In this document: positions 45,208 to 54,900 of the stretch, in pieces
Layout: each line of letters opens with the position of its first letter
Position numbering within the stretch: position 1 is the stretch's first letter
Origin: Cavenderia fasciculata
Lineage: Eukaryota > Evosea > Eumycetozoa > Acytosteliales > Cavenderiaceae
NCBI RefSeq assembly: GCF_000203815.1
Contig: NW_004457737.1
Span: 1,426,001-1,490,000, forward strand
Length of the DNA stretch: 64,000 nucleotides
Direction of reading: 5' to 3'
The notes under the pieces: model-generated
Told to the model about the DNA's origin: nothing
The model's input: the letters and a program-made list of their open reading frames with translations, nothing else
Database searches by the model: none
Program-made: the position numbers and the translations under genes

Positions 45208-47718
45208 ATGACAGATTGTGAACAACAACAAATACAACAACACCAACACCACAACATTCATAATATACTCAAGAATAAATATGTATTCAAGTTGATAACC
45301 AATTATATTCATGAATACTCACAACACAGTAGATATTCACCTCACGGTGTCTCTTACAAGATCGATGAGATACCAACGATGAGATGGGCGATCATCAATG
45401 GTTATGGAGGACTATTAGATTACTATTCAACCAACAAGGACAAGATTAGATCGTTGTGGCCTGTTCTGACAATCAACGATATTAAAGCATTATGTTCACC
45501 ACATCGATACAATCGGTCGTTTGCATTCAAATTGTCGACTTTCAAAAGATTGTTTGATATCTATAGTGATCAGTTGGCAGGTGATCATATAGTACTCGAC
45601 AATGCAGCAGAGTCTGGTAATTTAGAACTAGTAGAGTTTTTATTACAACAAGGTAGTACTACTACTGTGATCACTAATTTGGCTATTGAAAATGCATCTC
45701 AACAAGGTCATATTACAATCCTCGAAGCAATATTTAATCATATCAACAATAATAATAATAATAATAATTTGGATCATCCAAAACTTAAAAAGATAAACAA
45801 GATAAAGAATGCAAATATATTGACTTCTAGAGCATATGATTTGGCTGCATTTGATGGTCATGTTGGTGTATTAAAGTTATTGGATTCTTTTGAATGTGAT
45901 GCAACAAAGGATGCAATTGATATGGCTGTCAAGAATAATCATATTCAAGTAGTAGAGTACATGTTGGGTATTAAAAAGTACAAGAGTCTATTCACTCAAA
46001 AGGCAATCAAGAGAGCTATCCACAACAACAATCATGCAATGTTATTGTTGTTGATTAAAAAGGGTAGCCCGAAAAGCAAATACCTAGAACAAGATTCTAT
46101 CTTGTTGGCCGTTACAAACATGGTGTATCACAAAGATGTATCATCGAGTGTCAAGAATGAACAAACCGAGATGATCAAGTTTTTGGTAAAGAACAAGTAC
46201 TTGAGATCCATCTCATCCAACATGGTATCGACATTGGCACAATTTGGAAATATACAGGCACTCGAGTACCTTCATCAAGAGTTTGGATTGGAAAGAGATA
46301 ATTCTATAGAGACTTATGTTTGCATGAGTGGAGATATTGAAATGATGCTGTGGTATGCAAACAAGTTGGGTGGTACATTCTCTGATGAAAGTGTTAGATC
46401 GATTGTCAAACACGGAAATATAGAGTGTGTTAAATATGCATTGCCCGATCCATCAGTCATTGGCACAGACTTGCTCGAGTTTCTCATCCCAGAGGCATCG
46501 ACCAAAGGACATTTGGAAATTGTACAATATTTATTCAAGGGTTTTGGAGTAGACTATCGACCAACAACTCTGTTGGGATTGGATCAAGCAATGTCGTTTG
46601 GTCATTTGGATGTTGTAAAATATTTGGCCGAAAAGATTGACCTCGTTGCTGTGACGGAAAAGAGACCTCTAGAAAGAGGAATCGTCCGTTCAATTGAAGG
46701 AGGTCATTTCAATGTATTATACCATTTTTGTCAAGAGGTTCCGGTTGCCAAAGACATAGTGTCTGCCAATACAATCATGGCTGCTTGTAAAATGGATTTG
46801 GGTGTGACCAAATTCTTGTTTGACTATTTCAAAACATACGATATTATCGTCCCCTACATCTACCTGTCAGAGTGGATCAACACTGCTCGTGACAATGGAC
46901 AATTTGAAATATTTAAATATCTTGTCAGTCTAGACACTACTGTCACATTAAATATCGACGCAATATGTAAAAAGGGTCACGTACACATGCTAGAGTACGC
47001 ACTCTTTAAATCAGGCATCATCGTAGACAGCGACGACATTGAGATGGACAGAAAAAGACTAAAGATGAAAATAGAAACCAATACCGTTTTTAGTCTTGCC
47101 GAATTGGGTAGAGTCAAAGTGTTAGAGACACTTGTCAAATACAAGTTGTGGAGTGCTTCCAAACCTCTCCCAAATTCTATTATACCAATGTTGTTGGATG
47201 CCGGATACATCAACTTTGTCAAAAAGTCTTTAGACTCTAAAGTCTTCAACATGGAACACAGTTTATCTAGGGAATGGTACTATGTTCCCTTTCAAAGTGG
47301 CAATGTGGCTGTTATAGACTATGCTGTCAAAGTATTGGGTATCAAATTAACAACAACCAAGATGATCCTCGATTCTGAATCACCTCAAACCATTACAGTG
47401 CCATTTGTTATACCTCCAGTGGACAAGATCGGTACGAATGGATACCTACGTTCGATTGATTGGGCAAACAAATTGGACATTTACGACCACTCTACATTTG
47501 TCACTAAAATGGTTCCAAAACTAATCCAAAACAATCATTACACCATCGTGTCATCTCTCAAACTTAAACCAGAGGATTGGGATAGAGAAAACGTTGCTCT
47601 TTTAAATGCAGGATGGGATTCTAAAAATGAAACAATGTTAAATTATGTTTTATCAAAAGTTCCAAGTAAACATGCAAAAAAGTTTTTAGATTGGAAGAAA
47701 AATTATTCTAATCAATAA
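45208..47718 (+). CDS. Ankyrin-repeat protein, single exon
   Basis: 836 residues without introns. After a Gln/His-rich start (EQQQIQQHQHHNIHN), it has the same opening module as the ankyrin pair at 14-19 kb (ILKNKYVFKLITNYI). Degenerate ankyrin-like units follow: GNLELVEFLLQQG, GHVGVLKLLDSF, NHIQVVEYMLG, GHLEIVQYLFKGF and GHLDVVKYLAEK, with more to the end. It is not a tandem copy of the other two and is intronless. Its stop lies just 68 bp before the TTAA target site of the piggyBac element. It was originally convergent with the EGF/FN3 gene now at 51927-55774. Confidence 0.92.
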   Translation: MTDCEQQQIQQHQHHNIHNILKNKYVFKLITNYIHEYSQHSRYSPHGVSYKIDEIPTMRWAIINGYGGLLDYYSTNKDKIRSLWPVLTINDIKALCSPHRYNRSFAFKLSTFKRLFDIYSDQLAGDHIVLDNAAESGNLELVEFLLQQGSTTTVITNLAIENASQQGHITILEAIFNHINNNNNNNNLDHPKLKKINKIKNANILTSRAYDLAAFDGHVGVLKLLDSFECDATKDAIDMAVKNNHIQVVEYMLGIKKYKSLFTQKAIKRAIHNNNHAMLLLLIKKGSPKSKYLEQDSILLAVTNMVYHKDVSSSVKNEQTEMIKFLVKNKYLRSISSNMVSTLAQFGNIQALEYLHQEFGLERDNSIETYVCMSGDIEMMLWYANKLGGTFSDESVRSIVKHGNIECVKYALPDPSVIGTDLLEFLIPEASTKGHLEIVQYLFKGFGVDYRPTTLLGLDQAMSFGHLDVVKYLAEKIDLVAVTEKRPLERGIVRSIEGGHFNVLYHFCQEVPVAKDIVSANTIMAACKMDLGVTKFLFDYFKTYDIIVPYIYLSEWINTARDNGQFEIFKYLVSLDTTVTLNIDAICKKGHVHMLEYALFKSGIIVDSDDIEMDRKRLKMKIETNTVFSLAELGRVKVLETLVKYKLWSASKPLPNSIIPMLLDAGYINFVKKSLDSKVFNMEHSLSREWYYVPFQSGNVAVIDYAVKVLGIKLTTTKMILDSESPQTITVPFVIPPVDKIGTNGYLRSIDWANKLDIYDHSTFVTKMVPKLIQNNHYTIVSSLKLKPEDWDRENVALLNAGWDSKNETMLNYVLSKVPSKHAKKFLDWKKNYSNQ

Positions 47719-47785
47719 ATATTTGTATAAAAGAAGAGAGAAACGTTGTTGTATATTAAAATATCGATCGATCGTTTTATTTAAA

Positions 47786-47789
47786 TTAA
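47786..47789. repeat. Left TTAA target-site duplication
   Basis: TTAA directly before CACTTTGAAT. Pairs with 51935-51938. Confidence 0.85.
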
Positions 47790-47799
47790 CACTTTGAAT
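47790..47799 (+). repeat. Left terminal inverted repeat of piggyBac-type element
   Basis: CACTTTGAAT, matched in inverted orientation by 51925-51934. The identity stops at the eleventh base. Confidence 0.88.
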
Positions 47800-47827
47800 A
47801 GAGGGTGTGTCAAGTCGATGGCAGTGC

Positions 47828-47841
47828 GTAGTGGGTGCTAG
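47828..47841 (+). repeat. Left subterminal repeat
   Basis: GTAGTGGGTGCTAG, 38 bp in from the left end. It matches GTAGCGGGTGGTAG on the minus strand at 51834-51847 in 12 of 14 positions, so it is inverted like the ends. Possibly a transposase-binding site. Confidence 0.6.
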
Positions 47842-48483
47842 GTGCGTCGTTCAGCAGCTATCCCAATTGGGTCGTAAAAAAATAAAAAAAAAATGAATTT
47901 CCATTTTAGGAATTGTCGGTTGGCAGACTTTAGAGCACCAACCAAGCCACAGTAAGTTTATTATGAGTCAATAAAAGAGATAAAGTATAAGATAAATGAA
48001 GAGATAGAACATAGTATAGTTAGAACATATAGTATATAGTTATATATATAGATATATCATTGTATTTTGTGGCTCGTTAGTGCCAAATGCACAAGAAAGG
48101 ATAAGGAATAAGAGTTCACAATATTGTCAAGTACTGAATCAACACCAAGTCTATTGCTGTTATAACATTCACGAGTTACTTGTACTTATTTGCTCCTCCA
48201 ATCCACTCTTGTGCAGAGAGATACAGAGCTGTTCAAGTAAATTATCATTGTTTAAAGATATTGCCGCAGTTGCGTCTTTGTATGTTTAAATCTGCCACGA
48301 TTATCGATCATAGCATTGGTCCATTTACACTCAACTACCTGACCTGTGTCTCTTATCGCACTAGCTAGTTGCATGTTACTATAGTATAGAACTACCTACC
48401 TTTTTTTTATCTTCTTTTTTGGTTTTATTTATAACTATTTATTGGTGAATGGATGAATGGATGGATGGATGGAATGAACGGAG

Positions 48484-50260
48484 TTATCCTTGTCGTTGTT
48501 GTTGATGTTGATGTACTATTGCCGATAGAAGCAGTTTGTTTTCTGGGAGATGTGCTATAAGATAGCATTCATCGTGAAAGTTAACTTTACATTGGCAACA
48601 AGTCTTGGTGGTTCTTGTTCTACGCTTTACATCAAGGACTTTGCAATACTGACAAGGATTTAGATCACCTTGAACCAATGCGTGGACTACAGTTTGAGGA
48701 GCAGCAGCAGAAGTGGGAGCATATTGGCCTCCATTTCCACTGGTTACGTATGTGGATTGTGTAGCCAATTCTTGTTCCAGTTGTTTAATCCTATCTCTTT
48801 GATCCTGGAATACTTTTGATGTAATTGGATTCAAGTGTTCCAATTGTTTTTGAATAGGCTCCTGCAAGCCAAGCTTATCTCTTACCACGTTTTGAGTGAA
48901 ATCACAAAATCGGTATGTGCTATTGCCTTCAAGGGATTTGAAGATGCAATATGCATTCACCATTGCACGATCCAACTGCGCAAATATGTTAACATGTGTG
49001 TATTTGCTTTTTCGATGGGGATATGACCGACAATTTGATGATAGTTGTCCTGACAGATCGACTCCGTGGGTAGTTGCATTGTATTGAGTCTGCACATCGA
49101 GCTTTGTGAGTTTTCCTTCTTTTAATGTATATGGATTACAGGCATTTGATAAAAAATATGTTACTTTGCTGTCATTGATGGCGGTGGCACAAATGTCCTG
49201 GGGAATACCAGAGTCTTCTTTTGGAAATGCTATAGCAGCCAACTTTTTCTTGTTGTCCTTTTGTACCATGCGTCCTAAACCATCTTTGAAAAGGTACGTT
49301 GGTCTAATGGACCTTACAGTCATTACATAATGAATCTTATTGTTGGGATTGTTATCGTCGTTGTTGGAATTGATGTTTTGACTAAAGTTTGATAATACAG
49401 TGGCAACTTGTAATGATGTGTAATAGTTATCCATTGCAAACAAATAGTGACTCAATGGTCTATCATCTGTAGCTACTTTTTGTCTGACCCACTCTGCAAA
49501 TTCGATTGGGATTTTAAGAGGACTATTTGGTGGAAAAGAACTAACCACAGATGGATCTAAATAAGACAATAATAATGATTAGACATATGATGATAATGAT
49601 GATATTTGTAAATTGTTATAAAACAACATACCTATTGTTACAGATTTTGTTGTAGATTCATCACTACCTCTGTAAAGCCATTGGGTCAATATAAAACCAT
49701 TTGAGTCAGATAAAACGAAATACTTTAATCCAAATTTGTGTGGTTTATCTGGTTCATACTGCTTGAACCTTACCAAGCCTTTATAAGGGGCCATATATTC
49801 ATCGATTGATAAACGTAATGATGGGATATAGTGGTTGTTTGAATTTTTTTCAATCATTTGAATGACGGAATCTTCGTCATAGTGAAGGAATTTGAGGATG
49901 GACTTAAATCTTTTTCTTGACATTAATGGGCGGATAACAGATGGAGGATGGAAAGGGCTCTTTCTATTCCAATGGTCTTCCGCCCGTGGGAGTTTGACAA
50001 GACCCATAAAAAAGGCAATATAAAAGAAATTCTCCAATTGTTTATAGGTAAACAACTTGGTGTTGTCAACCAACTGTATTTCCTCTTGTTCTAACTGTTC
50101 TTGAATAAAGCTAAGCCTATCTTGTGGAGATAATCCTTGTGGCATTGTTGATAGAAACCCACGCTTCCAAGTCTCAAAATCAACCATTCTTCCAACAATT
50201 TGATTGTACTCAGTTTCTACTGCATTGGTTTGATTTGAGGTAGATGTGGTAGATGTTGTC

Positions 50261-50312
<52 letters not shown>

Positions 50313-51672
50313 TGGTCGATGTTTGCGAGTGGGAGGGTGTGAACAAACGAAGCAGACTGGATCCAAAGCTTGAAGAGGAAGTGGTGGCGGTGGTGGGAGT
50401 TGTTGATGAAGATGTATTAGAAAGAATAGGATGTTGGAATTGTTCGTTATCTTCATCAATTATTGTAACTGGCTGGCTCTTTCTTTGATTTTTCTTTTGT
50501 TTCTTTTTTCTCCTTGGTGTATCAGCCTCTTTTTCTTCATCATTATCATCATCTTCTTCTTCATTGTATCTTCTTCTAGAAGTTGAATATGTAGTTGTTG
50601 TTGTTGATGATGATGATGGAGGCGGCTGTGATTCCTTTGACTTATTCGTGAGAAAAAGTCTTATTTGTTGGTAATGTTGCTTGATGTATTTATAATCCCT
50701 TGCATATTTGCTTCGATGGATGAGATACAAATTCGATTCCTCGAGTATGTGGTTGATGACTGATTCGTCGATTATCAAGCTTATTACTTGACTAGGAGTT
50801 AATGGTTGATCGATGTTTTTGCTACGTGCTGATGCATTGCTGCTATCCATTTCATAGGTTATTCGATTCGACAATTCTTCTGAGTTTGTATTATTTAAAA
50901 TAGTCCATTTCTCTTTGAATAGATCCCCTATAAATGTGATAATTGTTCTAATTTGTTAGCAAGTTGTTGGTGAATCATCTATCTATCTATTTATATACAT
51001 ACGACATGGGCATTTACATTGAGAAGTACAACCATTATTATATAACTTGCATTTGCAAGCAGTACAATTCCCCTTGTTAGCGCATTTACATTCAAAAATG
51101 GTTGTGTCTTGAACAAAATAGTAAGACTTGGATGCACGTTTGTCCAAGTCCGTTAGGTTATTGAATAATGGGATACGACCGACACTTTCTGGTTGTTTTT
51201 TCTTCTTGTTATTCAACTTGTGGACATAAATCAATCTTGTTTGAAGAAATCTATTGAACTTCTGGTGGATTTCCAACTCTTCAGGTGATTCAATGGCTTC
51301 AATAGATTCTTTTGCTTCAAACTTCTTGAATAACTCCATGTGGGCATCGAAAGTCTCTTTGAACCATTCAAATTCCTCTTGTAAATCATCTTCTTTGTAG
51401 TTGGTACGTGGTTTTAGTGGTGGTTGTTGTTGTTGTTGTGAATACTCTACTTCTTTTTCTGGTACAGGTGTATGTGATCTTTGATATTCTGGTTCAACAA
51501 ATGCATCATCTTCTAGATCTTCATCGTCAAGTATAGCATTACCATCAAGTAAAGGATTATCATCAAGTAGATGATTGTCATCAAGTTGATTATTATCATC
51601 ATACTCGGCTTCGATCCCTCCTTTGTATATGCTTCGAAACAATGCTACACCTTTCTTCAAACTTTCAAACAT
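48484..51672 (-). CDS. piggyBac-type transposase (3 exons)
   Basis: Exons 51672-51003, 50927-49632 and 49556-48484 join to 1012 residues. The start is the ATG of MFESLKKGV; the frame is open upstream only to a GTG. Exon 1 encodes an acidic region with LLDDN-type repeats and ends in a Cys cluster (CKCANKGNCTACKCKLYNNG, then CTSQCKCPC) resembling a CXC-type metal-binding fold. Exon 2 has a basic region, Ser runs and the first part of the DDE_Tnp_1_7 domain, with SIDEYMAPYKG (D599) and KFGLKYFVL. Exon 3 has FAMDNYYTS (D698) and THGVDLSGQL (D822), then ALVNAY-like AMVNAYCIFK. This is the full DDD triad. The C terminus has the piggyBac Cys-rich domain (CQYCKVLDV, CCQCKVNFHDECY). It catalyses precise cut-and-paste at TTAA. 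It is longer than the insect enzyme (about 600 residues), mainly at the N terminus. Confidence 0.92.
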
Positions 51673-51833
51673 AGTTGTTGCTGCTGCTGATGCTGTTGAT
51701 GATTTATCTGTAAATACTCGTATTTTTGCAATAAAGAAACATATAATAGATAAATAATGTTGAGCGTACACATATTATATGAAGATATGTTAAAATATAA
51801 ATAGATAAAAAAAATTAAAATATTATGTTATTT

Positions 51834-51847
51834 CTACCACCCGCTAC
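51834..51847 (-). repeat. Right subterminal repeat
   Basis: GTAGCGGGTGGTAG on the minus strand, 87 bp in from the right end. Partner of 47828-47841. Confidence 0.6.
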
Positions 51848-51924
51848 TATAGATCGCTGAGCTATTACCAAATGCGGAATTGTTTTTTATTTTTTTTTGA
51901 CTTTGATCTGAAACTGATTTTGGC

Positions 51925-51934
51925 ATTCAAAGTG
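51925..51934 (-). repeat. Right terminal inverted repeat of piggyBac-type element
   Basis: Reads CACTTTGAAT on the minus strand. It also supplies the last codons and the TGA stop of the adjacent EGF/FN3 gene. Confidence 0.88.
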
Positions 51935-54900
51935 TTAAACCCTTATTTTTTTCCAAAATTTTCTTCATCTTTTTATCATGAATTTTCATGACTGATAACT
52001 TTTTATGATAGATAGTGGCACCTGTAGCAATGGCAACCAAACCAACTCCACCAACAACACATCCAACTATAATCTTCCAAGTTTTGGATGAAGAAGAATC
52101 GCATTCTTCTACTGTATCGCCGTTGAGAAGGAGGTCAAATTGTGGATCAAGAGTTGCTCTATCACTGAAATTTGGAATGAGTGTATAGATACTAATCATT
52201 TGTTGGTCTTTTTCATAGTTGTAGTATTGTTGCACTCTGTATCCAATCTTTCTTGGAATGTCATCCATCATTGCGCGATTAATTAATTTTCCAACTACAA
52301 TTTGATCCTTTCCAACAACTACCGAGGTGAATTCTGTTGAATTGTTCAAGATATTGTTTAGATCTACATCTCCTGAAACTCCACATCCTTGTTGACCTTG
52401 TGGTTGAGTTATGTTGGTTATTAATTGAAGAGTATTTAATCGATTGTCAAACTTCCATTGATCAATATCAATGGTATATTTGATCGAACCAAGATCTAGA
52501 TAAAATAATTGGTTTGCAAAGGTTATAGGTACCTTTGTTTCAGTGATATTAGTAACATCTGTTTGTGGTTGTTTCAATTGGTATTGTAAAAAGGTAATGT
52601 TGATCGAGTTGAAATGAGTTGTACTATTCGTTGAACTATAGATCCAAGTATTCTCCAACAATAGGTCAGACTTGATGGTTGGTTGATTGGTTTTGTTGGT
52701 TTGTGTCCAATTTTGGTTTGATAAATCCAACACCTTTACAATTTGGTCATCCAAATCCACTTCTCTGATTTCACAAATCACAAATTCGTAAAAGATATTT
52801 TTGTTGTTGATTACTACTTCTGGGGCGTTTGGTTTTGGATTTACATTGGTTCCATTACCACTGTCGGTTGTTGGTGTTTCACAATAAATACCAACTCTAT
52901 TATCATCACATAAACAAGTTCCATTTAAACATTGTCCAAATCCATTACAATCAATTGTATTATTTCCATTGTTATCAAAACAAGTTAAATTATTTGGATC
53001 TATAAAATAAAAGAATTAAAAAATTGATCAAATATATTATAAAAAACAGCTTACATCTCAAAGTTTGAATTGATGATGTTTTAACATAATCATCAAATTG
53101 TAAAGAAGATACAATGATATCTATGGCATAGGGAGTATTGGAAGTTAATTTGGTAATCAAACAACTAGTGGCAACACCAGAGCATACAGAAACAGGGGTT
53201 GGATGAGTACTACTTGGATTGTAAATGATGACCTCATAGCTAATGGTACCAGGTACTCCACCACTACTTGTCCATGAAACGTTTGCAAATTCATATCCAC
53301 TTGTTACATTGATTTGATCAATAGATGGGACTAATTTTAAAAAAATTAAATATTAGTCAATCAATGGTTTTGTAAAAATAAATTAATTAATTAATAAAGT
53401 TTTCTTACATTTATAAATTCTAAAAGTAAAAGGAGTTGTAACTTGATCATCACTTTGGGATGCTCTAATAGTTAAATTAAATGGACCACTTGGAATAGCA
53501 AGGTTTGGGGCAATGAATGAGTTTGTAGAGGTATTAAATGTAACCCCATTTGTGAAATTGGTAGAGGCCGATGCAAAAATAGTTGTAATAATACGTGATC
53601 CACCTTGTACAGTGGGTCTTATTTGTAAATAGGTTTGGTTTAAAGCGTTGATTTTTTGTATCGTTTCGGCAACGGTGATTTGCATGGTGGAAACGGAACT
53701 AAAAACGAATGGGAGTGTTTGGGATTTACGGAATGTCGTTGGCTGTACAACGGTTGCTGAAAAGGTATATTGAGTGTTTGGATTAAGGGTAAGTTTTAAG
53801 GGTCCTTGTGTACTGAGTCCCGTTACCACTAAAGATCCAGCAGAGGTAATTGGTATCTCGTAAAATCCACTTTGCAAATTATTAATAGTACACCAAAAAT
53901 TTGCAGAAATTGATGTAATATCTGTTATAGTTATATTACTAAGTAGAATATCTAAAAAATATTTATAATTAATTAAAAAAAGATTAATTAAAATATGATT
54001 CATATTTTTGATTTAAATTGATTGTTTTTACTTACTTCCTAACCAATTAAATGTTTTTATAACTTGTAAAGTGTTTCCATCATTGATGGCAGTAGCATTG
54101 ACTCTGTAATTGGTTGGTACACTTGGTGCTACTGCGAATGCTTGGTACATATTTTTAGTGTTATAGGGAGTATTTACACTGGTAACTAGATCGGTTACCT
54201 GAGTAATAAAGGTTGTTTCTCCGTATCCCAGGTTACTATAAGAAAAGGTGATGTTACCGGCCGAATAGGTAGGTTGGAATGCAAAATCAAAGTTGCTTAG
54301 TGGTGTGACAAGTTGTTGCATCACCGATTTAGTATTTGATGAACCAGTGTTGGTGACGGTAACAGTGACATTAACGAGAGCACCTAGAGGTAGTCCGACC
54401 AATTGACATGTTGTAGCAGCCGAGCATCCTGGGAATGTAATGGTAGTTGATGGTTGAATGATCGCACTCACAGCATATGTATTTCCATTGGCAAATCCAC
54501 CAGTAGATCCATATGTAATTGTAATAGAATTAGTTGTAACAGTTACTGGTGTAATAGTTGTAATCATTGGGTCTATTAAAATAAATAATTAATTAATTAA
54601 TTAATTAATTATCAATCTAAATTAATTTTAATGTATTCATTATACATACAAGCAGGAATAGTAAAAGTTTGAGTTACAAGGGGAGCAATAATAAGATTAT
54701 TAACATAATCAAAACCATCGACATAGAATCCGAGGGTACCTGAAAAGCCGGCAGTTAACCTTGTAAAGACCATATTTGTAGATGCTTGGTATGTATAACC
54801 ATCGTTGTAAGGTGTACTTGTTGATTGTTGGTTGAGCATAACCGTTGTATAGGCATTTGCCTTTTGATCAAAACCAAAGTCTAGTCCGAGTACTCTGACG

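Follow-up and report, generated by a model that had tools for sequence, protein, structure and literature searches.

An apparently complete piggyBac-type DNA transposon of Cavenderia fasciculata with near-identical copies at different genomic sites

A 64-kb stretch of the genome of the social amoeba Cavenderia fasciculata (C1:1426001-1490000, the window) carries an element which is, with high confidence, a complete and recently mobile cut-and-paste DNA transposon of the piggyBac superfamily. The element shows inverted repeats at its ends, TTAA on both sides, a three-exon transposase gene, the catalytic triad of aspartates, and near-identical copies at different sites of the same genome. The element adds a solid, if rather ordinary, new member to a transposon family that is well known.

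Ends and transposase gene of the window copy

An earlier reading, made from the sequence only, had placed TTAA-flanked inverted repeats at both ends of the element. Within the window TTAACACTTTGAAT has exactly two exact matches, at 47786-47799 (+) and at 51925-51938 (-), i.e. in inverted orientation, which confirms an exact pair consisting of TTAA and a 10-bp terminal inverted repeat (TIR; CACTTTGAAT), the short TIR expected of piggyBac elements. Shuffling the window 100 times yields a mean of 0.01 matches and no shuffle with two. When up to three mismatches are allowed, 25 matches are observed compared to 28.8 expected; as the mismatch-tolerant motif is no commoner than chance, only the exact, inverted and TTAA-bounded pair counts as evidence for the ends. 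The window copy (C1:1473786-1477938) spans 4,153 bp including both TTAA copies and 4,145 bp (47790-51934) without them. An Rfam scan of positions 46000-54000 gave no match at the gathering score.

A single gene lies within the element on the minus strand, and its three exons, spliced at two 75-nt GT-AG introns which were picked by eye from the sequence, yield an open frame of 1,012 codons (Table 1). This bears out the proposed three-exon structure, and after splicing the catalytic residues D599, D698 and D822 are found at exactly the numbers given to them beforehand. The start Met of exon 1 is backed by a similar MF..KK start in a second, related family of this genome (family B, see below). 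The Pfam model DDE_Tnp_1_7 (PF13843) covers residues 504-858 (E = 7.1e-27; 95.1 bits compared to a cut-off of 22.4), so that both the domain and the DDD triad characteristic of piggyBac transposases are present. The C-terminal Cys-rich domain, a further piggyBac trait which had been recognized in the earlier reading, consists of C957-x2-C960, C975-x2-C978, H983, C986 and H991 and is kept in family B; no Pfam model matched this cluster. Structure models of the protein were of low confidence, with a mean pLDDT of 40.7 in the core, 58.9 in exon 1 and below 50 in the Cys motif.

In the proposed mechanism, a three-exon transposase would be made from the window gene and would bind the element ends through its C-terminal Cys/His domain, possibly also through an N-terminal CXC-like module. 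DDD catalysis would then excise the element at TTAA, with reinsertion at another TTAA.

Table 1. Positions of the element, its transposase gene and the adjoining gene end in the window.
Feature	Position	Strand	Remark
Left TTAA target-site copy	47786..47789	none	
Left 10-bp TIR, CACTTTGAAT	47790..47799	+	exact pair
piggyBac element, 4,145 bp without TTAA, transposase on minus strand	47790..51934	-	at least six young copies in the genome
Transposase exon 3, including stop	48484..49556	-	
C-terminal Cys/His cluster (C957-H991)	48550..48654	-	conserved in family B
G825 codon	49048..49050	-	at position of the fourth conserved Asp (D450) of T. ni piggyBac, by alignment
D822 codon, third catalytic Asp (GVD)	49057..49059	-	
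D698 codon, second catalytic Asp (MDN)	49429..49431	-	
Intron 2, 75 nt, GT-AG	49557..49631	-	position same in family B
Transposase exon 2	49632..50927	-	
D599 codon, first catalytic Asp (SIDE)	49801..49803	-	
Intron 1, 75 nt, GT-AG	50928..51002	-	position same in family B
Transposase exon 1, codons 1-223 and first base of 224	51003..51672	-	
N-terminal CXC-like cysteine motif (C195-C223)	51004..51090	-	shared with C11 relic and family B
Right 10-bp TIR	51925..51934	-	exact pair
End of ComC-domain gene	51927..52781	-	stop codon (51927-51929) supplied by element
Right TTAA target-site copy	51935..51938	none	

Young copies and evidence for recent movement

The whole element was used to search the C. 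fasciculata genome (30,995,898 bases in 21 contigs), whereby all copy counts are lower bounds. At least six young copies were found, on contigs C1 (the window copy), C8, C14, C18, C3 and C7, each with different flanks. TTAA and TIR are present at both ends in four of the six (C1, C8, C14 and C3), as expected for the TTAA target-site duplication of piggyBac elements. Over the aligned parts, the number of substitutions relative to the window copy is 4 for C8, 1 for C14, 13 for C18 and 0 for C7, and for C3 it is 2 in the left and 0 in the right part. The remaining differences among the young copies are insertions and deletions of 1-42 bp, many of them in triplet repeats; among them is a 28-bp deletion in the C14 copy, 56 bp from its left end. 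In the C18 copy the right inverted repeat is gone, since the alignment ends 34 bp before the right end; its right junction holds a TTAA, which is probably the original target-site copy. The C7 copy is truncated: its left end is present, but its right end is missing. Older relatives comprise a relic on C11 (about 80-93% identity over five pieces) and fragments on C16 (85-90%). Copies with the same ends, different flanks and 0-13 substitutions thus exist elsewhere in the genome, and for this reason the element is not a fixed single-copy gene. The recent mobility suggested by the sequence-only reading is thereby strongly supported, the support being within-genome evidence, namely near-identical copies at different sites.

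Four (nearly) full-length copies, C1, C18, C8 and C14, were spliced in the same way. Besides the open window frame, that of C18 remains open for 1,023 codons, although its tail is altered; the C8 copy has a stop after 366 codons, and a +1 shift ends the C14 frame after 471 codons. The extra base causing this shift is also present in C3 and is missing from C1, C8, C18, C7 and the C11 relic, which identifies the shift as derived. As the C14 and C3 copies share it at different loci, each with its own TTAA, this pattern suggests that a copy already carrying the +1 shift moved using transposase supplied in trans, probably by an intact copy. Single-base assembly errors may also underlie the pattern.

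Several observations have to be weighed against recent mobility of an intact element. No paralogous empty site was found for the joined flanks of the C1, C8, C14 and C18 copies (C3 and C7 excluded) in a search in which 40 of 77 candidates were scored and in which only the loci's own halves touched a join. Likewise, the protein relatives of the open frame at the C18 site stop short of crossing the insertion site. The markers within the copies are in conflict, too: in the C3 copy the +1 shift of C14 occurs together with a 42-bp GAT-repeat expansion that is also found in C7, from which it follows that gene conversion or recurrent repeat expansion has mixed them. Moreover, the window copy is the only one of the six young copies to combine both ends with a full-length open frame. 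Finally, the position of the fourth conserved Asp is occupied by Gly, although PMC2533014 asks for an acidic charge there for efficient excision in cells.

The last two observations also favor a recently extinct family, i.e. the same piggyBac element that moved lately but of which no copy is now active, being either silenced or catalytically lost; hereto adds that the other five young copies are each defective in gene or ends. However, open frames are kept in both C1 and C18, and the same Gly is found in the multi-copy family B. Because family B carries this Gly and has several copies, the residue is unlikely to have blocked spread. We consider present-day extinction possible but less likely than not; it agrees with the classification of the element and differs from our interpretation on present activity only.

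A domesticated piggyBac-derived gene, kept for a host function, could account for the open frame with conserved domains and for the amino-acid conservation relative to family B. It would leave unaccounted for the intact TIR and TTAA ends and the six near-identical copies at different loci, and the gene is broken or truncated in four of the six (C8, C14, C3, C7), as in a decaying transposon family. Domesticated genes of the PGBD type are single-copy and devoid of TIR and target-site duplication, compared to at least six young copies, four of them with intact ends, found here. On the grounds of copy number and intact ends this very improbable explanation was rejected. An assembly artefact or contaminating DNA, to which one could refer the splitting of the C3 copy by a 10-kb stretch of unclear origin, is hardly conceivable given the ankyrin-repeat and ComC-domain genes in the window flanks and the presence of copies on six contigs.

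At the C18 site we also considered a gene split by the element, as same-strand open frames lie on both sides. Here, the long frame is not continuous through a plain TTAA and the protein relatives do not cross the site, so that no split gene is claimed.

Relation to family B and to known transposons

A second family in the genome, family B, comprises three loci (C21:218440, C5:2552664 and C7:59781) and includes the public protein DFA_06867. Its ends read TTAACACCTTG and TTAACACTTTG, with TTAA on both sides in two of the three loci; the C7 copy is without a right end. When spliced so as to match the public gene model DFA_06867, the family B gene shows the same three-exon layout and intron positions as the window gene, and shares with it the N-terminal Cys motif, GVDLSG and TTAACACYTTG ends. 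Its protein is 45% identical to the window transposase overall and 53% over the core; the DNA is about 65% identical over the matched stretch. In the model DFA_06867 (P0003) the segment containing the third Asp is missing, although it is encoded in the DNA of the C21 copy. Between the window family (family A) and family B, synonymous divergence amounts to 0.80 per site (saturated) and nonsynonymous divergence to 0.38 over 923 codons and 0.28 in the core. Overall, nonsynonymous divergence is hence far lower than synonymous divergence, a pattern compatible with selection acting on the protein. This is less clear for the 51-codon Cys/His stretch (synonymous 0.69, nonsynonymous 0.53), which shows the highest nonsynonymous difference among the stretches compared by codons. 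For family A and the C11 relic, counting only codons retained for good identity, the respective synonymous and nonsynonymous values are 0.12 and 0.09 in exon 1 and 0.31 and 0.10 in exon 3.

Among known structures, two PDB entries match the transposase at E < 0.1, T. ni piggyBac (6x67, E = 7.6e-8), with which it shares the DDD catalytic domain, and piggyBat (9c0f, E = 9.5e-8), likewise matched in the catalytic domain. T. ni piggyBac targets TTAA. Its 594 residues compare with 1,012 in the window transposase, which has two introns and the N-terminal CXC-like motif in addition, and it reads GVDTLD with D450 where the window protein reads GVDLSG with Gly. The T. ni residues C559, C562, C574, C577 and C582, given in PMC2533014, are much like the Cys/His cluster described above. 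piggyBat is distant in sequence, with a chain of 578 residues and GVDRAD instead of GVDLSG; its ends may resemble those of the window element, as the sequence-only reading had proposed.

The GVDxxD motif with a fourth Asp, which is common in but not strictly defining for piggyBac transposases, is thus absent here. GVDLSG is found in the window family, the C11 relic and family B; a fish relative (P0007) reads VVDLSG, and another locus of this genome (C14:1118800-1121000) reads GVDKAD. According to PMC2533014, excision in cells suffers when D450 is changed, and each of the four positions requires an acidic charge; D450 is there described as the least critical of the four, and D450A is cited as active in vitro.

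The N-terminal Cys motif can be described by the spacing CxC..C..CxC..C..CxC..C, a CXC-like pattern written post hoc. This pattern is present in all three proteins, and in none of 20,000 shuffles of exon 1 or 20,000 shuffles of the Cys stretch. With the Tesmin/TSO1-like CXC model (TCR, PF03638; cut-off 23.5 bits) the family B motif reaches a sub-threshold score of 16.8 bits; pieces of family A and of the C11 relic gave no TCR match, their only weak hit being VESA1_N. A TCR scan of the whole genome returned five matches, two of them above the cut-off and close together (C21:692669-693068), the other three, below it, being the three family B copies. No CXC protein was among the matches of a PDB search with the motif. 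We regard the motif as a lead toward a Tesmin/TSO1-like CXC domain, not as evidence of membership. Tentatively, the element might belong to a separate and recently mobile lineage of piggyBac, whose transposase would combine a CXC-type zinc DNA-binding domain at its N terminus with GVDLSG lacking the fourth Asp, and would therefore recognize ends or choose targets differently from insect and bat piggyBac. It could serve as a test case for whether loss of the fourth Asp together with an N-terminal Cys module changes piggyBac chemistry.

An intact piggyBac element in a dictyostelid had been called noteworthy in the sequence-only reading, whose placement of the DNA in a dictyostelid proved correct. 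The noteworthiness was overstated, since C. fasciculata proteins are already labelled as piggyBac-derived, Sola2 elements are present in the species, and piggyBac is present in Entamoeba. The public labels of the homologs, assigned automatically, begin with 'PiggyBac transposable element-de...'. Sola2-type Fanzor1 elements (DFa-1, 2 and 3) of Dictyostelium (Cavenderia) fasciculatum are described in PMC3627910; they are DNA transposons of the same species, but have a Sola2 transposase and TIRs of 12-13 bp, and their 4-bp duplications are AT-rich AWWT rather than TTAA. LEAPFROG1_EI (DNA/PiggyBac, Entamoeba genome), listed in PMC6917348, is a piggyBac element in Amoebozoa from another lineage, likened here by classification only. 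The Tdd, DDT and Thug elements of D. discoideum are likewise dictyostelid DNA transposons, whose transposases are, according to PMC5633606, without significant similarity to known ones; piggyBac is a different superfamily. While the transposases of the DNA transposons reviewed for D. discoideum are thus unlike any known, the present family, with its apparently intact copy, offers social amoebae a native transposon whose mechanism is understood, with possible uses as an endogenous tool and, via empty sites, as a marker of strain history. Our literature search found no paper pairing 'dictyostelid' with 'piggyBac', nor one pairing Cavenderia fasciculata with a transposable element; Repbase was outside its coverage, and an earlier description is possible.

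Homologs of the transposase were sought at E ≤ 0.001. Among 5,514 candidates, one C. fasciculata and one fish protein matched; a second search of 6,993 candidates returned proteins from C. fasciculata (three), from fish (one) and from the sources lgn, jgi or ena (five). The C. fasciculata homologs are DFA_06867, DFA_05162 and an 'ABC transporter G family protein', and DFA_06867 is the sole match to the N-terminal region among 297 candidates. These searches require shared 5-residue words and allow no inference of absence from other dictyostelids. The public model of the 'ABC transporter G family protein' (P0006, on C11) fuses the third exon of the relic with an ABC-transporter-like end.

Further loci and insertion sites

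A genome scan with PF13843 gave 19 matches, counted exon by exon and hence representing fewer loci, with no match on C2. A separate piggyBac-like frame at C14:816487-817554 has 528 codons between stops, scores about 250 bits with PF13843 and shows an N-terminal SAP match just below the cut-off. The exact pattern TTAACACYTTG occurs 54 times in the genome, compared to 38 times for the reversed control. When we looked for short, MITE-like derivatives, one convergent TTAACACYTTG pair up to 10 kb apart was found besides the known copies, the search being confined to these end letters. This pair, C2:1674783 (+) and C2:1682186 (-), is 7.4 kb apart, is tied to no known copy and may be due to chance. 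The fragments C21:1489561-1489875 and C1:2111973-2112105 show no clear ends by eye.

The window copy is flanked by an ankyrin-repeat gene, which ends at 47718, and by a minus-strand gene with a ComC supersandwich domain. The two genes converge, and the element entered the last codons of the ComC-domain gene. The frame of this gene ends in KNKGLTL* with element bases; the joined empty site would give KNKGLI*.

The C3 copy (flanks C3:845977 and C3:860203) appears, by eye from the joined flanks, to sit in intron 1 of a gene whose first exon is signal-peptide-like. It is split by 10,016 bp (C3:848665-858680), flanked by a 5-bp duplication, AATAG. This stretch, which may be a real insertion or an assembly join, carries host-like genes, one of which breaks off within an EGF-like stretch. 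Parts of the 10,016 bp show 77-87% similarity to C1:1478906-1484611, directly beside the window element. The inserted stretch also contains, at C3:852970-854100, an inverted repeat pair of about 268 bp (97% identical) with relatives of about 80% identity at C14:1365211-1365826.

In the right flank of the C14 copy (C14:2921350 onwards), a multi-copy repeat starts 18 bp past the TTAA, with 100% identical copies on C2, C3 and C18. It carries a zinc-ribbon motif which we take to be TnpB/Fanzor-like. Such an assignment agrees with PMC3627910, where Fanzor elements are described for this species.

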